This document shows, piece by piece, positions 23,007 through 29,331 of a stretch of DNA of 39,460 nucleotides (positions are counted from its first letter, which is position 1; the number at the start of each line of letters is the position of its first letter). The DNA is from Flavobacteriales bacterium (GTDB taxonomy: Bacteria > Bacteroidota > Bacteroidia > Flavobacteriales_D > Cryomorphaceae), in contig SLDS01000128.1 in the NCBI GenBank assembly GCA_007125175.1, positions 1 to 39,460 on the forward strand. The letters are read 5' to 3'. Below the pieces are notes generated by a model. The model searched no databases and was not told the DNA's origin. It saw only the letters and a list, made by a program, of their open reading frames with translations. The position numbers and the translations under genes were made by a program.

Positions 23007-24755
23007 ATGTCTATCGACGGACAAAACATCATGACGCGAAGCTGGCAAATGCGCCAAAGTGCGGATGAAAGCGCGTTGGAAAAGCTCAGACAGGAGCTGC
23101 CCCAAATGCATCCCATCATCGCCACCCTGCTCGTGCAAAGAGGGCTGAGCGAAAGATCTTCGGTCGAATCCTTTTTCACCCCTGGATTGAAGCGCATTGA
23201 GGCCTTGCCGGCGATGAAAGATTTGGCGAAAGCCACTGAGAGGGTGCTCAAGGCTTTACAAAATCGGGAGCGCATACTGGTATACGGAGATTACGATGTG
23301 GATGGAAGCTGTGCCACCGCTATGGTGCATTCCTTTTTGCGCGGCAGGGGAGCAGAAGTGCAAGCCTACAACCCCGATCGCTACAAGGAGGGCTATGGCA
23401 TCAGCAAGCAGGGGGTGAGCCATGCCATCGAAGGCGGCTTTGGGCTTGTCCTGGCGCTCGACTGTGGCATTGCGGCTGTAGACCGCATTTCAGAGCTGGC
23501 CGCCGGGGGTATCGACTGCATCGTATGCGACCACCACCTGCCGGGCCCGGTGCTCCCACCGGCTTATGCCATCCTGAATCCCAAGCAGCGCGACTGCCCA
23601 TTGCTGGGTGAGGAACTCTGCGGTTGCGGCGTGGCTTTTGAGCTCATCCGCTCGGTGTGCGGAACCCTGAATTTGCCGAAAGGCGAATGGATGCAATTCC
23701 TGCCCCACGTGGCGGTGGCCACCTGCTGCGACATCGTACCCTTGCTGGGCATTAACAGAAGTCTCGTGAGCGAGGGATTGAAAGCCCTCAATGCTGATCC
23801 CCCACCTGCATATGCTGCCCTCCTGCGCTGCGCTGCGTACAGCGGCACCCTCAGCGTGGCCGATGTGGTGTTCAAAATCGGGCCGCGCATCAATGCGGCC
23901 GGGCGCCTCAATCATGCCCGCAAGGCTGTATCCCTACTCACCGCCACCAGCCTGGACGAAGCGATGCCAATGGCCATGGAGCTCGAGCAATTGAACCGAG
24001 AGCGCCGAAGCATGGACAAGCACATGAGCGAAGAGGCTGTGGAGCTTATGCTGCAGGAAGATCCCCACATGAACCGCGCGGCAACGGTGCTGAGCAAGGA
24101 AGGCTGGCACAAGGGCCTGGTGGGTATAGCGGCCTCAAGGCTTATGGAGCGCTGCTACCGCCCTACGGTGGTGCTCACCGAGCTGGATGGGCAGCTTAGC
24201 GGGAGTGCCCGCAGCGTAGAGGACTTCAACCTGTACAAGGCTCTGCAGCATTGCGAGGAGCACCTCATCCAATTCGGGGGCCATGCTGCGGCAGCGGGAA
24301 TGAGCCTGAGCAAGGAGTCCTTCGCCGATTTCAAGGCCGCCTTTGAGCAGTATTGCGCCTCTCAGCTCGGAGAGGTAGAGTGCATCCCTCCCCTGCGGAT
24401 CGACCTCAAAGTCGATTTTCGGGAATGGGCCAATGAGCAGTTTGGGATCTTTTTCAAGCAAATGAACCGCCTCAGGCCATTCGGGCCGGGCAATATGCAG
24501 GCAGTTTTCGCGACAGAAGGCTGCAAAGCGCGCGACGTGCGGGTTTTGGGAGCGGATGGCAGCCACCTCAAGTTCGAAGCCTATCAGGAAGACAATCCTG
24601 CCAAGGGCTTCTCCACCATCGCCTTTGGTTTCGGACAGCTGGCAGAAGCACTAAAGGAGGGCAATCGATTTGACCTTGCCTACACCATCGGAACCAATTA
24701 CTGGAATGGCGAGAGCCTCTTGCAGCTTGAAGCCAAAGACATCATTGTGAGCTGA
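23007..24755 (+). CDS. recJ: Single-stranded-DNA-specific exonuclease RecJ
   Basis: RecJ degrades single-stranded DNA 5' to 3' in recombination and mismatch/base-excision repair. The 582-residue protein carries the DHH phosphoesterase motifs: GDYDVDG (94-100), LDCGI (151-155) and DHH (175-177) with the following ILNPKQRDCP. The DHHA1 part has GSARSVEDFNLYKAL and the FGGHAAAAGMSL motif, and an OB-like C-terminal region follows. Length matches the family. ATG 23007 is used; an in-frame ATG at 23031 is also possible. The 3' end overlaps the oppositely oriented mscS-type gene by 14 nt. Confidence 0.95.
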   Translation: MSIDGQNIMTRSWQMRQSADESALEKLRQELPQMHPIIATLLVQRGLSERSSVESFFTPGLKRIEALPAMKDLAKATERVLKALQNRERILVYGDYDVDGSCATAMVHSFLRGRGAEVQAYNPDRYKEGYGISKQGVSHAIEGGFGLVLALDCGIAAVDRISELAAGGIDCIVCDHHLPGPVLPPAYAILNPKQRDCPLLGEELCGCGVAFELIRSVCGTLNLPKGEWMQFLPHVAVATCCDIVPLLGINRSLVSEGLKALNADPPPAYAALLRCAAYSGTLSVADVVFKIGPRINAAGRLNHARKAVSLLTATSLDEAMPMAMELEQLNRERRSMDKHMSEEAVELMLQEDPHMNRAATVLSKEGWHKGLVGIAASRLMERCYRPTVVLTELDGQLSGSARSVEDFNLYKALQHCEEHLIQFGGHAAAAGMSLSKESFADFKAAFEQYCASQLGEVECIPPLRIDLKVDFREWANEQFGIFFKQMNRLRPFGPGNMQAVFATEGCKARDVRVLGADGSHLKFEAYQEDNPAKGFSTIAFGFGQLAEALKEGNRFDLAYTIGTNYWNGESLLQLEAKDIIVS

Positions 24756-25893
24756 ATCCGGAGCCCCGGCTGCCCGCAGATCTCCCGAAATCGCCCTGAG
24801 GCCCTGCATCGGCATTGGGAATGAAGTGCAAATCGCGCTGGGGATAGGGCACCTGAATGCCATTTGCGCGAAACTCCTTGTCGATCTCGAAGCGGATTTC
24901 GCTCAGCAAGGTTTCGACCACCCAGGTCTTACGGGCCCAGAAGTACACGTTGAAATGCAGCCCGTTTTCACCAAAATCCTCAAAGCGAACGATGATTTCC
25001 CTGTTCTTGCTCACGTCGGGATGCCGCAGGGCGCAGCCGTAGAGTATCTCCTTCACCTGCTGGGTGTCGCTGCCAAACTTCACGCGGGTGCTGATGCTAA
25101 ATCGGGTGAGTTCCGTGCCATGACTCCAGTTCACCACCTTCTCGCCCACCAGGTTGGAATTGGGAATGATAATGTACTTGCCGTCGCGGGTGAGCACCTT
25201 GGAGGTGCGTATATCGATCTGCTGCACGCGTGCCACAAGGCCGTTTACCTCAATCACATCGCCCACCTTCACCGGACCCTCGAAGAGGATGACAAGGCCC
25301 GCTACAAGGTCGTAGAAGAGGTGCTGCAAGCCAAAGCCAATACCCACGAGTAGCGCCCCTATACCACCGATGATGAGCTTCATATCGATGCCTATGCTGG
25401 TGAGGCCAGCGATCAGGGCAAAGCCGTAGAGGCCGTACTTGGTGAGCTTGTAGATGGTATACTCCTTGCCCTCATCGATCCATGCCTTACGGGAAAAGTT
25501 CTTGCGCAGGATGATGCGCACGAAGCGCGACAATATGCGGGCAAAGATGATGATCAGTACGAGGACGAGTATCTTGCCCAGGCTGATATTGACCCCTTCC
25601 AGCTTGAAAATGCGGTAGGAGAGCAGCAGCTCGAGCACATCGTAAAGGCCAAGACCCGAGATGGCCAGCACCACAGCGAGCAGTACGATGGTGGTGCGGC
25701 CCACGCGCAGGATAATGGCCTCCTTCTCTTTGTCGAAGCGATCCAATGACCGCAATTGCCGATGAACCAGTCTTCTAAAAAGCTTTAGCAGAAAGCGTGT
25801 GGCAAAGACAATGATCAGGAGGAGCAGGAGCTTGCTCAAGGTAAGCTCGAACACGTCTGATTCGTAAAGGGTATAATTGAGAATGTCGCTCAT
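24742..25893 (-). CDS. MscS-family mechanosensitive channel
   Basis: This 383-residue inner-membrane protein belongs to the small-conductance mechanosensitive channel family, which opens under membrane tension to release solutes on hypo-osmotic shock. Hydrophobic segments lie at about 18-38, 65-85, 105-128 and 155-175, and the pore-lining helix is IIGGIGALLVGIGFGLQHL with the Gly/Ala pattern of TM3. The cytoplasmic beta domain contains GPVKVGDVIEVNG and IIIPNSNLVGEKVVNWS. The last 25 residues are a Gly/Ser-rich tail. It follows dnaG by 31 nt and is probably the last gene of that run; its 3' end overlaps recJ. Confidence 0.92.
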   Translation of the reverse strand: MSDILNYTLYESDVFELTLSKLLLLLIIVFATRFLLKLFRRLVHRQLRSLDRFDKEKEAIILRVGRTTIVLLAVVLAISGLGLYDVLELLLSYRIFKLEGVNISLGKILVLVLIIIFARILSRFVRIILRKNFSRKAWIDEGKEYTIYKLTKYGLYGFALIAGLTSIGIDMKLIIGGIGALLVGIGFGLQHLFYDLVAGLVILFEGPVKVGDVIEVNGLVARVQQIDIRTSKVLTRDGKYIIIPNSNLVGEKVVNWSHGTELTRFSISTRVKFGSDTQQVKEILYGCALRHPDVSKNREIIVRFEDFGENGLHFNVYFWARKTWVVETLLSEIRFEIDKEFRANGIQVPYPQRDLHFIPNADAGPQGDFGRSAGSRGSGFSSQ

Positions 25894-25924: not shown

Positions 25925-27877
25925 TTAGAGGATAGCGGTCCCAAAATACGAACTGAGATGGACTTTGAGCCGATCCAGACGAATTTTCTCCAGGAGGAGC
26001 AAATGTAGTTCATCCACCTCAGAGCAGTCCTTGATCTTGAGCTCAAGCTCAGAAATCATGTGCATCACACGCTTCAGCTTGAGACGCATCAAGGGGTCGA
26101 AGGCCGTTTGCTTGAGGTTTTCTTCCTCCGACTCGGTGTAGATGTGGTACTTCGCCTCCCAATTTTCGCTGAGCTCGTAAGGCTCAGAAATGAGCTCTGC
26201 CACAAGGGGGCTGAGCTCGTGATCGTTCACAAAATAATTGACATCGGGAAATGAGCCCTGCGCCTCAAAGCGCTCCCGAAACACTTCCACAATTTTGCGG
26301 TAAGCAGGGGTGTAAAAGTCAATGCCATCGGTGAAAAGCTCGTGCAGTACATACTCTGCCAGTGGCACATGCAGCTCCTCACTCTCATCTCCTTCCTCTT
26401 CTTCCGGCTCGAGCTCTATGCTGATCTCCTTATTGCCGTAAGTGAGCAGGACACGGGCTATTTCGCGTTCATAGATGCTTTCATCAGCTTTGGGCGGGCC
26501 CTCTTGAGGAGGTGCAGCGAGCACATCCAGTGGCAAATCCGACTCCCGCTCCTCGCGAATGGCCTGTCGGCGTTGCTCCCGGCGTATGATCTTATTGATC
26601 TCATTGTGGATCACCTGCGCAGCAATGCCCAGCTGTCTGCTGCACTTCTCCACGTAAGTGCTGCGCACGATCTGATCCTTGACCAGGGCGAGGCTCTCCA
26701 CCATGCGCCGCACGGCTTCGGCCTTCTTGATAGGCTCGCTGTCCGCGCCATCGGGCAGCATCACTTTCGTGAAAAAATCGATGAAATCAACCGCTTCTTC
26801 TTCGATAAAGGTCTCCAATTCATCCTGGCTCACCGCCCGGGCGTAAGAATCGGGATCCTGCCCGGTGGGAAAAAGCACCACCCTGGCCTGCACACCTTCT
26901 TGCAGCATGAGATCGATAGCCCGCATGGCGGCCTTGATACCGGCCGAATCGCTGTCGTAGAGTATGCTCACATTGCTGGTAAAGCGCTTGATAAGCAGGA
27001 CTTGCTCGCGCGTAAGGGCCGTACCCGAAGAGGCCACCGCATAGCCGAGCCCGGCTTGATGCAGGGAGATTACATCGGTATAGCCCTCTACCAAGAGGCA
27101 ATGATTTTTTTGTACAATGCTGCGCTTGCCTTCGTAGATACCGTAGAGCACCCGGCTCTTTTCGTAGAGGGGGCTTTCGGGTGAGTTGAGGTATTTTACC
27201 TTATTGTCGCTGCGCAGGGTGCGCCCGGCAAAGGCGATGTTTCGGCCACTCACATTGCGGATGGGAAAGATGACCCTTGCCCGGAAAAAATCGTAGGCCC
27301 CGTACTCTCCTTGCTTGATGAGGCCGAGTGTACCCATGTGCTCCTCATTGTGCCCTGCCTCCACGGCGGCCTTGAGCAATGCGTCGCGCTGATCGGGGGC
27401 ATATCCCAAGCCGAAGGTCTCAATGGTAGCATCGGAAAATTCACGCTCTCTGAAATAGCTCAATCCCACACTGCGCCCTTCCTCGCTTTCCCAGAGATTT
27501 TGTCGGAAATGCTCAAATGCAAAATCATTGACAAGGGCCAGACTTTCGCGCAAGCTCACCTCCTCGGCCTGCTCCTTGCTCACTTCGGTCTCCTCCACCT
27601 CTATGCCGTACTTACCGGCCAGATAGCGCAGGGCTTCGGGATAGGTCATGTTCTCGAGCTCCATGAGGAAGCTCACAGCATTGCCGCCCTTGCCGGAGCT
27701 GAAGTCCTTAAAAATGCCTTTGGAGGGCGATACGAAGAAGGAAGGTGTTTTCTCATTGGTCCAGGGACTGAGGCCCTTGAAGTTAGACCCAGCTTTCTTG
27801 AGCTGTACGAAGTCGCCAATGACCTCCTCAATGTGCACAGCATCAAAGATGCGGCTGATGGTGGCTTGAGAAATCAC
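25925..27877 (-). CDS. dnaG: DNA primase DnaG lacking the zinc-ligand residues
   Basis: DnaG makes RNA primers for replication. Taking GTG 27877 as start gives 650 residues beginning VISQATISRIFDAVHIEEV, the family's standard N-terminus. Any start further upstream would run through the preceding lipoprotein gene in another frame. The N-terminal CHC2 region is recognisable (GLSPWTNEKTPSFFVSP, GIFKDFSSGKGGNAVSF), but the four zinc ligands C-x2-H ... C-x2-C are replaced by Ser37, Thr40, Asp58 and Ser61. The Toprim motifs VEGYTDV and LYDSDSAG are intact, so catalysis should remain. The C-terminal helicase-binding part is divergent. The gene starts one base after the lipoprotein stop. Loss of zinc ligands may be usual in related Flavobacteriia; I recall similar sequences but cannot check. 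Confidence 0.93.
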   Translation of the reverse strand: MISQATISRIFDAVHIEEVIGDFVQLKKAGSNFKGLSPWTNEKTPSFFVSPSKGIFKDFSSGKGGNAVSFLMELENMTYPEALRYLAGKYGIEVEETEVSKEQAEEVSLRESLALVNDFAFEHFRQNLWESEEGRSVGLSYFREREFSDATIETFGLGYAPDQRDALLKAAVEAGHNEEHMGTLGLIKQGEYGAYDFFRARVIFPIRNVSGRNIAFAGRTLRSDNKVKYLNSPESPLYEKSRVLYGIYEGKRSIVQKNHCLLVEGYTDVISLHQAGLGYAVASSGTALTREQVLLIKRFTSNVSILYDSDSAGIKAAMRAIDLMLQEGVQARVVLFPTGQDPDSYARAVSQDELETFIEEEAVDFIDFFTKVMLPDGADSEPIKKAEAVRRMVESLALVKDQIVRSTYVEKCSRQLGIAAQVIHNEINKIIRREQRRQAIREERESDLPLDVLAAPPQEGPPKADESIYEREIARVLLTYGNKEISIELEPEEEEGDESEELHVPLAEYVLHELFTDGIDFYTPAYRKIVEVFRERFEAQGSFPDVNYFVNDHELSPLVAELISEPYELSENWEAKYHIYTESEEENLKQTAFDPLMRLKLKRVMHMISELELKIKDCSEVDELHLLLLEKIRLDRLKVHLSSYFGTAIL

Positions 27878-27878
27878 G

Positions 27879-28298
27879 TCAAAGAGGAGAATGCTGAATG
27901 ATGGAATCGGCCTTTTCAGGTTGCACATCCATATCGATGCGCGCCGCCACAACCCCTGTGGTATCGTAAAAGGTCCAAACACCACTGCGCTCATCGCTGT
28001 AATAGCGACCACTGTAGCGCATGATGCCATTGGGGTAAAAGGTAGTGGTAGGCCCCTCCTTGTACCCGTACTTGAAGGTGGTTTCGCTCCACTTGAGTCC
28101 ATTGGGATAGTACGACTCCCAAAGTCCGGAGCGCTTACCATCGATGGTGGTGCCGCGCTTGCTGAGCATGCCGTTCTCGTAATATTCTTCCACCTTTTTT
28201 ACTTCGGGTTCTTTTTGCTCTTCCTTTCCTGACTCGGGCCCGGCACATGCAGCCACGAGCAAAGAGAGCATGACGATGTACAAAAATCTCACATCCAT
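27879..28298 (-). CDS. Lipoprotein with MORN-type (YwqK-like) repeats
   Basis: The 139-residue protein has a lipoprotein signal ending LLVAAC (Cys18), a charged linker of Glu and Lys, then several copies of the two-strand MORN variant: EEYYENGMLSKRG, LWESYYPNGLKWSE, TTFYPNGIMRYSG and VWTFYDTTGVVA. Proteins with these YYPNG-type repeats are frequent in Bacteroidota; some resemble the YwqK antitoxin family, but most have no known role. It should be attached to the membrane facing the periplasm or the surface. It starts 9 nt after the prenyl synthase stop and ends one base before dnaG, so it is clearly part of the same transcript. Confidence 0.85.
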   Translation of the reverse strand: MDVRFLYIVMLSLLVAACAGPESGKEEQKEPEVKKVEEYYENGMLSKRGTTIDGKRSGLWESYYPNGLKWSETTFKYGYKEGPTTTFYPNGIMRYSGRYYSDERSGVWTFYDTTGVVAARIDMDVQPEKADSIIQHSPL

Positions 28299-28307
28299 GG
28301 TATACAG

Positions 28308-29282
28308 CTATTTGTTGCGGTTGATGGTATATGCCACGAGCGCCTCCAAAGCATCTCTGGCCTCTCCTTGATCAAATCTATAAAGAATTTCCATAGCCTG
28401 CTTTCGATGAGATTCCATCTGTGAGGCGGCATAATCGATGCCTCCGCTGCCCAGCACATAATCTATCAATTCCTGCACCTTGGCCTTGTTGCGGTTGTGG
28501 TGCTTGACCGTGCGAATCATCCAGCGCCGCCTGTCGGGCTCGGCGTGCTGGATGGCGTAGATCAGCGGCAGGGTCATTTTCTTTTCTTTGATGTCGATGC
28601 CGGTGGGCTTGCCCAATTGCCCGCCCTTGCTGTAGTCGAATAGGTCGTCTTTGATTTGAAAAGCGATGCCCACAGCATTGCCAAAGGAGCGCATGAGGCT
28701 GCGCTGCTCCTCGTCGCCACCAGCCGAGTAGGCTCCGCATTCACAGCAAGCGGCAATCAATGAGGCTGTCTTTTGGCGGATGATGTCGAAGTAGACCTCT
28801 TCGGTGATATTGAGTTTTCGCGTTTTCTCCATTTGCAGCAGCTCCCCTTCGCTCATTTCGCGCACCGCATGGCTCATGATGCGCAGTAGCTCAAACTCAT
28901 TTTGCTCCACGCTGAGCAGCAATCCCCTGGACAGCAAGTAGTCGCCTACGAGTACGGCGATCTTGTTCTTCCAAAGGGCATTGATGGAGAAAAAGCCCCG
29001 TCTCAAATTGGCATCGTCTACCACATCATCGTGTACAAGTGTAGCCGTGTGCAGGAGCTCGATCAATGAGGCCGCAGTATAAGTACTGTCGCCGACGCTT
29101 CCAACCAATTTTGCCGAAAGGAAGACAAACATAGGCCTCATCTGCTTGCCCTTGCGCTTTACGATGTAGTGCGTAATGCGGTCGAGAAGGGCCGTATTGC
29201 TTTTCATAGAGCCGCGAAAGCGCTCCTCGAAAGTTTCCATTTCGTCGGCTATGGGAGCTTTGATATGCTTTATATCGGCCAT
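28308..29282 (-). CDS. Polyprenyl diphosphate synthase (long-chain trans type)
   Basis: The 324-residue enzyme belongs to the trans-isoprenyl diphosphate synthase family. It has both aspartate-rich motifs: VHDDVVDDANLRRG (first DDxxD at 85-89) and FQIKDDLFDYS (second at 212-216). GKQMRP (45-50) and GKPTGIDIKEKKMTLP are also conserved. The phrasing is closest to octaprenyl/solanesyl synthases that make the side chain of menaquinone, but chain length cannot be fixed from the sequence. I chose ATG 29282 over 29294 because MADIKHIKAP fits the family. It follows the 529-residue secreted-protein gene by 49 nt. Confidence 0.92.
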   Translation of the reverse strand: MADIKHIKAPIADEMETFEERFRGSMKSNTALLDRITHYIVKRKGKQMRPMFVFLSAKLVGSVGDSTYTAASLIELLHTATLVHDDVVDDANLRRGFFSINALWKNKIAVLVGDYLLSRGLLLSVEQNEFELLRIMSHAVREMSEGELLQMEKTRKLNITEEVYFDIIRQKTASLIAACCECGAYSAGGDEEQRSLMRSFGNAVGIAFQIKDDLFDYSKGGQLGKPTGIDIKEKKMTLPLIYAIQHAEPDRRRWMIRTVKHHNRNKAKVQELIDYVLGSGGIDYAASQMESHRKQAMEILYRFDQGEARDALEALVAYTINRNK

Positions 29283-29331
29283 GCAGCGCCGCAAATATCC
29301 GAATTCATAACGATTGAATTGCCACTTCGGC

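Follow-up and report, generated by a model that had tools for sequence, protein, structure and literature searches.

DnaG primases with a replaced zinc site in Bacteroidota

We describe a DnaG primase, encoded in a 39,460-nucleotide stretch of DNA from a Flavobacteriales bacterium (contig SLDS01000128.1 of assembly GCA_007125175.1; the whole stretch is referred to here as the window), in which all four zinc ligands of the N-terminal CHC2 domain are replaced. The protein is a new variant of a familiar one, and across a survey of Bacteroidota and phages the variant proved to be phylum-wide but patchy in its distribution, with a strikingly uniform set of replacement residues. We consider it likely (at a probability of roughly three in four) that this protein is the cell's own DnaG and that its initiation domain keeps the zinc-ribbon fold with no zinc, a polar core taking the place of the metal.

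The dnaG gene of the window and its zinc-ligand positions

Read from the sequence alone, dnaG is an intact frame within a row of genes on the same strand, and its product passes the TIGR01391 dnaG equivalog model, which places it in the DnaG-type primase family (Table 1). Position 27877, at which the first-pass annotation ended its feature, is the GTG start codon of the gene. A longer ATG start offered by the list of open reading frames runs into the upstream MORN-repeat gene, which lies in another frame; this start is unlikely to be that of dnaG because the stop codon of the upstream gene ends at 27879.

Profile searches matched PF08275 and Toprim in the body of the protein, and PF10410 (30.9 bits, cut-off 20.6) in its helicase-binding domain. 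Residues Glu264, Asp308 and Asp310, which we take to be the catalytic acidic residues of the Toprim site, are all kept, and the corresponding columns are invariant across 49 sequences. A whole-protein model (mean pLDDT 88.6, pTM 0.59) fits the polymerase domain of S. aureus (4EDG) and the helicase-binding domain of M. tuberculosis (5Z51). The earlier impression that the Toprim motifs are intact is borne out by this comparison.

Table 1. Positions of dnaG, its domains, its ligand codons and the neighbouring genes within the window
Feature	Coordinates	Strand	Remarks
dnaG, DNA primase, 650 aa	25925..27877	(-)	GTG start at 27877, stop codon included; TIGR01391 411.1 bits (cut-off 283.6)
CHC2 zinc-ribbon-type domain without zinc ligands, residues 1-99	27581..27877	(-)	PF01807 89.6 bits, cut-off 24.9
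Ligand position 1, Ser37 (AGT)	27767..27769	(-)	Ser in 223/223 zinc-less rows
Ligand position 2, Thr40 (ACC)	27758..27760	(-)	Position varies among zinc-less rows
Ligand position 3, Asp58 (GAC)	27704..27706	(-)	Asp in 158 and Cys in 65 of 223 zinc-less rows
Ser60 (AGC), non-ligand, changes together with the site	27698..27700	(-)	Ser in 223/223 zinc-less rows
Ligand position 4, Ser61 (TCC)	27695..27697	(-)	Ser/Thr in 223/223 zinc-less rows
RNA polymerase domain, Toprim fold, residues 106-427	26597..27562	(-)	Model vs 4EDG: Z 36.1, rmsd 2.5 Å, 319 aligned
Helicase-binding domain, residues 466-648	25934..26482	(-)	Model vs 5Z51: Z 9.7, rmsd 3.7 Å, 141 aligned
MORN-repeat protein, 139 aa	27879..28298	(-)	Upstream; stop codon ends one base ahead of dnaG
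Polyprenyl synthetase	28308..29294	(-)	Next upstream gene beyond the MORN-repeat gene
MscS-type mechanosensitive channel	24742..25893	(-)	Next gene downstream of dnaG

The N-terminal residues are recognized as a CHC2 domain both by the Pfam Zn_ribbon_DnaG profile (PF01807) and by the predicted model. Alignment to that profile assigned the four ligand columns to residues 37, 40, 58 and 61, which read STDS in the window's protein; E. coli K-12 and Bacteroides finegoldii, aligned to the same profile, read CHCC. Where the Cys-x2-His and Cys-x2-Cys pairs would stand, the protein has Ser37, Thr40, Asp58 and Ser61, so that the codons and the profile alignment agree with the first-pass annotation that every ligand is replaced, and the loss is confirmed as real. 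Compared with the DnaG proteins that carry a canonical CHC2 domain (Bacillus stearothermophilus, 1D0Q; Aquifex aeolicus, 2AU3; E. coli), the window's protein has the same three domains, the same polymerase domain and the same predicted ribbon fold, but an S-x-D-S set in place of three cysteines and one histidine. Those four residues are called highly conserved in a 2018 review (PMC6163395).

Residues 1-101, modeled alone with AlphaFold2 (pLDDT 94.6), superimpose on 1D0Q with a Z score of 16.6 and an rmsd of 1.4 Å over 98 residues (Z 17.1 and 1.6 Å for the same comparison with the whole-protein model). The first-pass annotation had argued that the domain must fold without zinc and had proposed predicting its structure; the zinc-ribbon fold is indeed kept in the prediction, although a good model is no proof of a zinc-free fold because AlphaFold2 models no metals. 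Conservation was expressed as the mean majority residue over the 49 proteins: residues 1-99 score 0.83 and the Toprim core (residues 195-345) 0.82, the polymerase domain as a whole scoring 0.73 and the helicase-binding domain 0.45. Ser37, Lys57, Phe59, Ser60, Gly64 and Gly65 are invariant across the same set.

Distribution and uniformity of the replacement

A total of 380 Bacteroidota loci were fetched, of which 362 gave usable rows; the remaining 18 were dropped because the protein was truncated or split, had a low score, or was a long primase of the mobile type. The ligand states of these rows (CHCC 138, CHWC 1, S-x-[D/C]-[S/T] 223) describe a sample and no census, in which families with low CHC2 scores were fetched deliberately, 79 named rows came from a zinc-less query, and the rows of families f16 and f17 came from the listing of a zinc-less profile search. 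Some genomes are represented twice, and the 273 distinct coded genomes comprise 137 with the zinc type, 78 with the Asp form and 58 with the Cys form. None of the 38 genera with at least two genomes (118 genomes; 193 genera in total) is mixed; the zinc state switches between families of one order and between genera of one family.

Of the 55 genomes from the window's order, 44 are zinc-less; the 11 that read CHCC belong to families f7, f10 and f13. The zinc-less rows include all 52 named Flavobacteriaceae, 10 named Weeksellaceae, and all rows of f17 (29) and f16 (3), each gathered with the zinc-less query. Elsewhere the zinc-less state was found in 6 of 36 genomes of f14, 18 of 39 of f19 and one of five of f43. 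Families f26, f28 and f39, from another class, have only the Cys58 form (37/37 rows), as does the single f60 row, which the tree places with them. From their clustering with named rows we take f14, f16 and f17 to be Sphingobacteriaceae, Weeksellaceae and Flavobacteriaceae, respectively; the zinc-less f14 genomes cluster with Mucilaginibacter.

The suggestion that ligand loss might be a lineage-wide trait of Flavobacteriia-like bacteria needs correcting. It does not hold as a uniform trait, since three families of that order keep CHCC, nor as an exclusive one, since the same state occurs in f14, f19, f43, another class and phages. An alignment of DnaG across Bacteroidota with ligand loss placed on a tree, which the first-pass annotation had proposed, gave a patchy pattern with 13 changes. 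Zinc-ligand loss is wider and patchier than had been guessed.

The replacement set itself varies little. Every one of the 223 zinc-less rows has Ser37, Ser60 and Ser/Thr61, with position 40 free to vary; of the 139 zinc-type rows, 130 have Gly60, 7 have Ser60 and 2 have Ala60. Half-way ligand states were absent from the 362 cellular rows, the single CHWC row aside, and the zinc site changes as a block. That row (L061) comes from a draft genome (G026) with a second dnaG copy on a separate contig (L013) that reads CHCC, the 44 domain residues shown for the two being identical apart from CHCC/CHWC; L061 may be an assembly fault or a strain mixture, because the other copy in the same draft genome reads CHCC. 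In most groups the switch is accompanied by changes at four further positions: Arg/Lys29 gives way to Ser/Ala, position 34 becomes Lys/Arg, position 48 takes a bulkier residue, and position 69 becomes Ser/Thr. The first three of these are not required, because the zinc-less f14 rows are without them.

The codon for Ser37 is AGY in 87 of the 95 zinc-less rows with a gap-free reading, and the two sets of serine codons are mixed at positions 60 and 61. AGY lies one step from the cysteine codon TGY, and the bias at position 37 therefore suggests that this serine arose from cysteine and was not free to pass via other residues. The Cys58 form (S-x-C-[S/T]) may be an older or an alternative solution. 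Members of a Chryseobacterium group (L123, L129, L134, L208-L210 and others) have His40 beside Ser37, Asp58 and Ser/Thr61, keeping one residue of the original ligand type in isolation (SHDT in 9 and SHDS in 2 of the 362 rows).

Phages carry the same set. The primase of Flavobacterium phage 1H reads STDS and that of Cellulophaga phage Ingeline_1 reads SVCS, their genes being longer (3558 and 3261 bases; annotated as toprim domain-containing protein and DNA primase). In a viral scan that was seeded with zinc-less patterns and is biased toward such forms, 65 of 74 loci read S-x-[CD]-[ST], the other nine being CCCC (4), CHCC (3), STCC (1) and CKCC (1). The zinc-less viral loci have Ser60 in 63 of 65 and Ala60 in two; frames of 1,062-1,133 residues account for 29 of them, and the others are shorter, some being cut by a contig end. 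The viral domain that reads STCC is L403, and those that read CCCC are L437 and L450-L452.

Several loci in the sample were irregular. In a one-contig genome (G009, L059, positions 2480-2680) dnaG is split within the N-terminal domain into two overlapping frames at an A run; because the genome is 99% complete, an indel introduced by sequencing is more probable here than a dead primase. In another one-contig genome (G236, contig 1, 4513397-4513677) the CHC2 domain spans two overlapping frames of 82 and 617 aa. Three genomes listed as 99% complete (G464 of f19; G113 and G210 of f28) had no CHC2 match, pointing to a dnaG that is diverged, broken or unassembled. Second primases of 1127, 987 and 1089 aa, reading SICT, TGCT and SGDS, were present in G031 (L058), G462 (L341) and G458 (L342); the genomes' own DnaG proteins are zinc-less, and the second primases probably belong to mobile elements or prophages.

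Most likely, the zinc-less protein is the DnaG at work in the cell rather than a spare copy. Neither a second dnaG with intact ligands, which the first-pass annotation had named as a finding that would overturn its claim, nor any second CHC2 match at an E-value of 0.001 was found in the window's genome (a draft of 257 contigs, 94.88% complete). A single CHC2 match was likewise present in 12 of 15 one-contig genomes with an unsplit zinc-less DnaG (G025, G064, G088, G109, G120, G132, G163, G175, G191, G283, G338 and G463). We regard the zinc-less DnaG as the probable working copy because of these single matches, in the window's genome and in the 12. The remaining three genomes have further CHC2 matches: three weak ones in G515 (E 3.7e-8 or worse), one in G160 and two in G255. 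A second copy could sit in the missing 5% of the window's draft genome.

We also inspected other zinc proteins in 20 genomes of the window's order, a set that includes two genomes with a CHCC DnaG (G013, G016) and one without a DnaG match (G004). ClpX and LigA were each found in 19 of the 20, and the ClpX motif C..C...C..C and the four LigA cysteines are kept in all 19 loci of each. The RecR zinc motif is kept in 19 of 22 loci; the exceptions are the locus of the window's own genome (L510), which ends inside the motif, and two sub-cut-off matches (L517, L518). A general saving of zinc is rejected because the motifs of ClpX, LigA and RecR are kept.

Evolutionary history of the zinc-less domain

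A tree of the DnaG body, built from 71 rows without the first domain, required 13 changes between the zinc and zinc-less states, 10 of them forced by well-supported branches, and none of 200 bootstrap trees of the same body alignment had just one change. Constraining the zinc-less rows to one clade cost 583 log-likelihood units, and a single origin on the DnaG body is rejected (p-AU 2e-85). With three states (zinc, Asp58 and Cys58), the same careful tree required 18 changes; a quick body tree of 152 rows gave 16 changes between two states, 8 of them forced.

We somewhat favor the reading that zinc was abandoned independently in at least four Bacteroidota lineages, each reaching the same metal-free set of Ser37, Asp/Cys58, Ser60 and Ser/Thr61. 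By our judgement, and not as a test result, these conversions would be those of the f28 group, f43, f19 and the Flavobacteriales core; the other switches may include exchanges of the domain. Some of the 13 switches on the body tree may accordingly be exchanges of the N-terminal domain.

The alternative, which we hold only tentatively, is that the zinc-less domain had few origins and was spread by recombination of the first 100 codons. Trees of the domain itself have fewer changes than the 13 or 16 of the body: five with 152 rows; four with 71 rows and the five site columns removed (one clade not rejected, p-AU 0.19); and eight with eleven columns removed (one clade rejected, p-AU 0.0025), the extra six having been picked post hoc since they track the zinc switch. 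The columns of the domain are too few to tell repeated conversion from domain exchange. The best matches of the zinc-less domains of f14 are other zinc-less domains (79.7%, versus 73.9% for their own zinc type), as are those of the window's order (74.6% versus 70.5%), and in one locus (L343) a Mucilaginibacter-like domain is joined to a body whose sister on the tree is a CHCC row. By mean identity, however, the zinc-less f14 domains are nearer to their own zinc type (67.5%) than to other zinc-less domains (63.7%), and those of f19 are nearer to their own zinc type by best match (69.5% versus 66.4%) as well as by mean (60.9% versus 57.1%). The zinc-less domains of the f28 group are closer to zinc-type domains elsewhere (66.4%) than to other zinc-less domains (59.8%), though their own two zinc-type neighbors stand at only 51.7%.

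Proposed function and alternatives

Recognition of the start site falls to the first domain in DnaG-type primases, and primases of the T7 type also rely on this domain for help in passing on the primer (PMC6163395, PMC5634424, PMC10557236). The usual initiation role is to be expected of the window's DnaG, because its fold and conserved residues are kept. For the zinc-less DnaG we infer the absence of metal, a hydrogen-bonded core and template recognition. In the mechanism that we propose, the two zinc knuckles would be joined by a polar core consisting of Ser37, Asp58 (Cys58 in many relatives), Ser60 and Ser/Thr61, a grouping suggested by conservation alone, with neighboring positions (29, 31, 34, 48, 69 and 77) that appear to have adapted in most groups. 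The domain would still recognize the start site on the single-stranded template and would aid the polymerase domain in synthesizing the first primer nucleotides. Because the Cys58 form is without Asp58, a single mechanism may not serve for both. Counting against zinc-free function, one paper reports that the short form of T7 gp4, in which the zinc motif is missing, lacks primase activity, and puts the loss of priming by human Twinkle partly on its missing zinc cysteines (PMC3610141).

It is improbable, in our estimation, that the remodeled site holds another metal, for example Mg2+, Ca2+ or Fe bound by Asp58 and the hydroxyls, or an Fe-S cluster formed between chains via Cys58. Asp58 together with two or three hydroxyls could coordinate a hard cation, His40 is available in addition in Chryseobacterium-like rows, and the mitochondrial helicase of Drosophila is reported to carry an Fe-S cluster in its N-terminal domain (PMC8688847). 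Against this, 65 of the 223 zinc-less rows are without Asp58 and the other 158 have no cysteine at a ligand position, position 40 varies, and no site is common to the Asp58 and Cys58 forms.

That the N-terminal domain is degenerate and dispensable, the RNA polymerase domain priming alone, is very unlikely. The canonical ligands are all gone, and animal Twinkle lost both its zinc cysteines and its priming (PMC3610141); but the domain equals the Toprim core in conservation, with its six invariant residues in 49 sequences, and decay would not preserve one residue set. A pseudogene is also rejected, the ligand replacement being conserved among relatives. A sequencing or assembly error in the window, whose genome is a draft, has next to no probability and had been named in the first-pass annotation as a way for its claim to fail: two more genomes of the window's genus are zinc-less (SGDS, SNDS), as are one-contig genomes and named isolates, and chance and error are both excluded because Ser37 is conserved in 223 of 223 zinc-less rows.

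Two known systems resemble the polar-core DnaG that we favor. Animal Twinkle, a mitochondrial helicase that lost its primase, likewise has a primase N-terminal domain without the zinc cysteines, and its fold was the next match to the window's domain after two DnaG structures (7T8B, Z 7.1, rmsd 2.5 Å, 62 aligned). Human Twinkle differs in that other primase motifs are also missing and it does not prime (PMC3610141), whereas the window's DnaG retains its Toprim residues. No Twinkle-like loss of primase motifs beyond the zinc site is seen, the residues of the polymerase domain being conserved and its fold kept in the model.

Zinc-free ribosomal protein paralogues (RpsN.2 of group A streptococcus, for example) offer a parallel in that an essential protein has lost its zinc-ribbon cysteines; they are usually second copies for times of zinc scarcity and are reportedly covered by the survey 'Two C or not two C'. 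Paralogues of the RpsN.2 type are described as second copies of use in zinc scarcity (PMC12707111). The window's DnaG, in contrast, is a single zinc-less copy, and other zinc proteins in its order are kept. We found no report of zinc-ligand loss in DnaG among the matches listed from open-access papers, which is weak evidence of novelty since subscription papers lay mostly outside the search.

Priming without zinc ligands, which we presume to occur, would separate the two roles that have been proposed, the holding of the fold and the sensing of DNA, and the zinc-less Mucilaginibacter and the CHCC members of the same family form natural pairs for domain swaps. In many Bacteroidota, Flavobacterium and Chryseobacterium among them, drugs aimed at the CHC2 domain may meet an altered site. 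The strictness of the replacement set leads to testable predictions on the evolutionary replacement of a structural metal site. If the interpretation is true, these proteins would represent a repeatable evolutionary path by which a zinc ribbon becomes a metal-free fold, with the one-cysteine form as a living alternative state, and the choice of start sites on DNA would possibly be altered.
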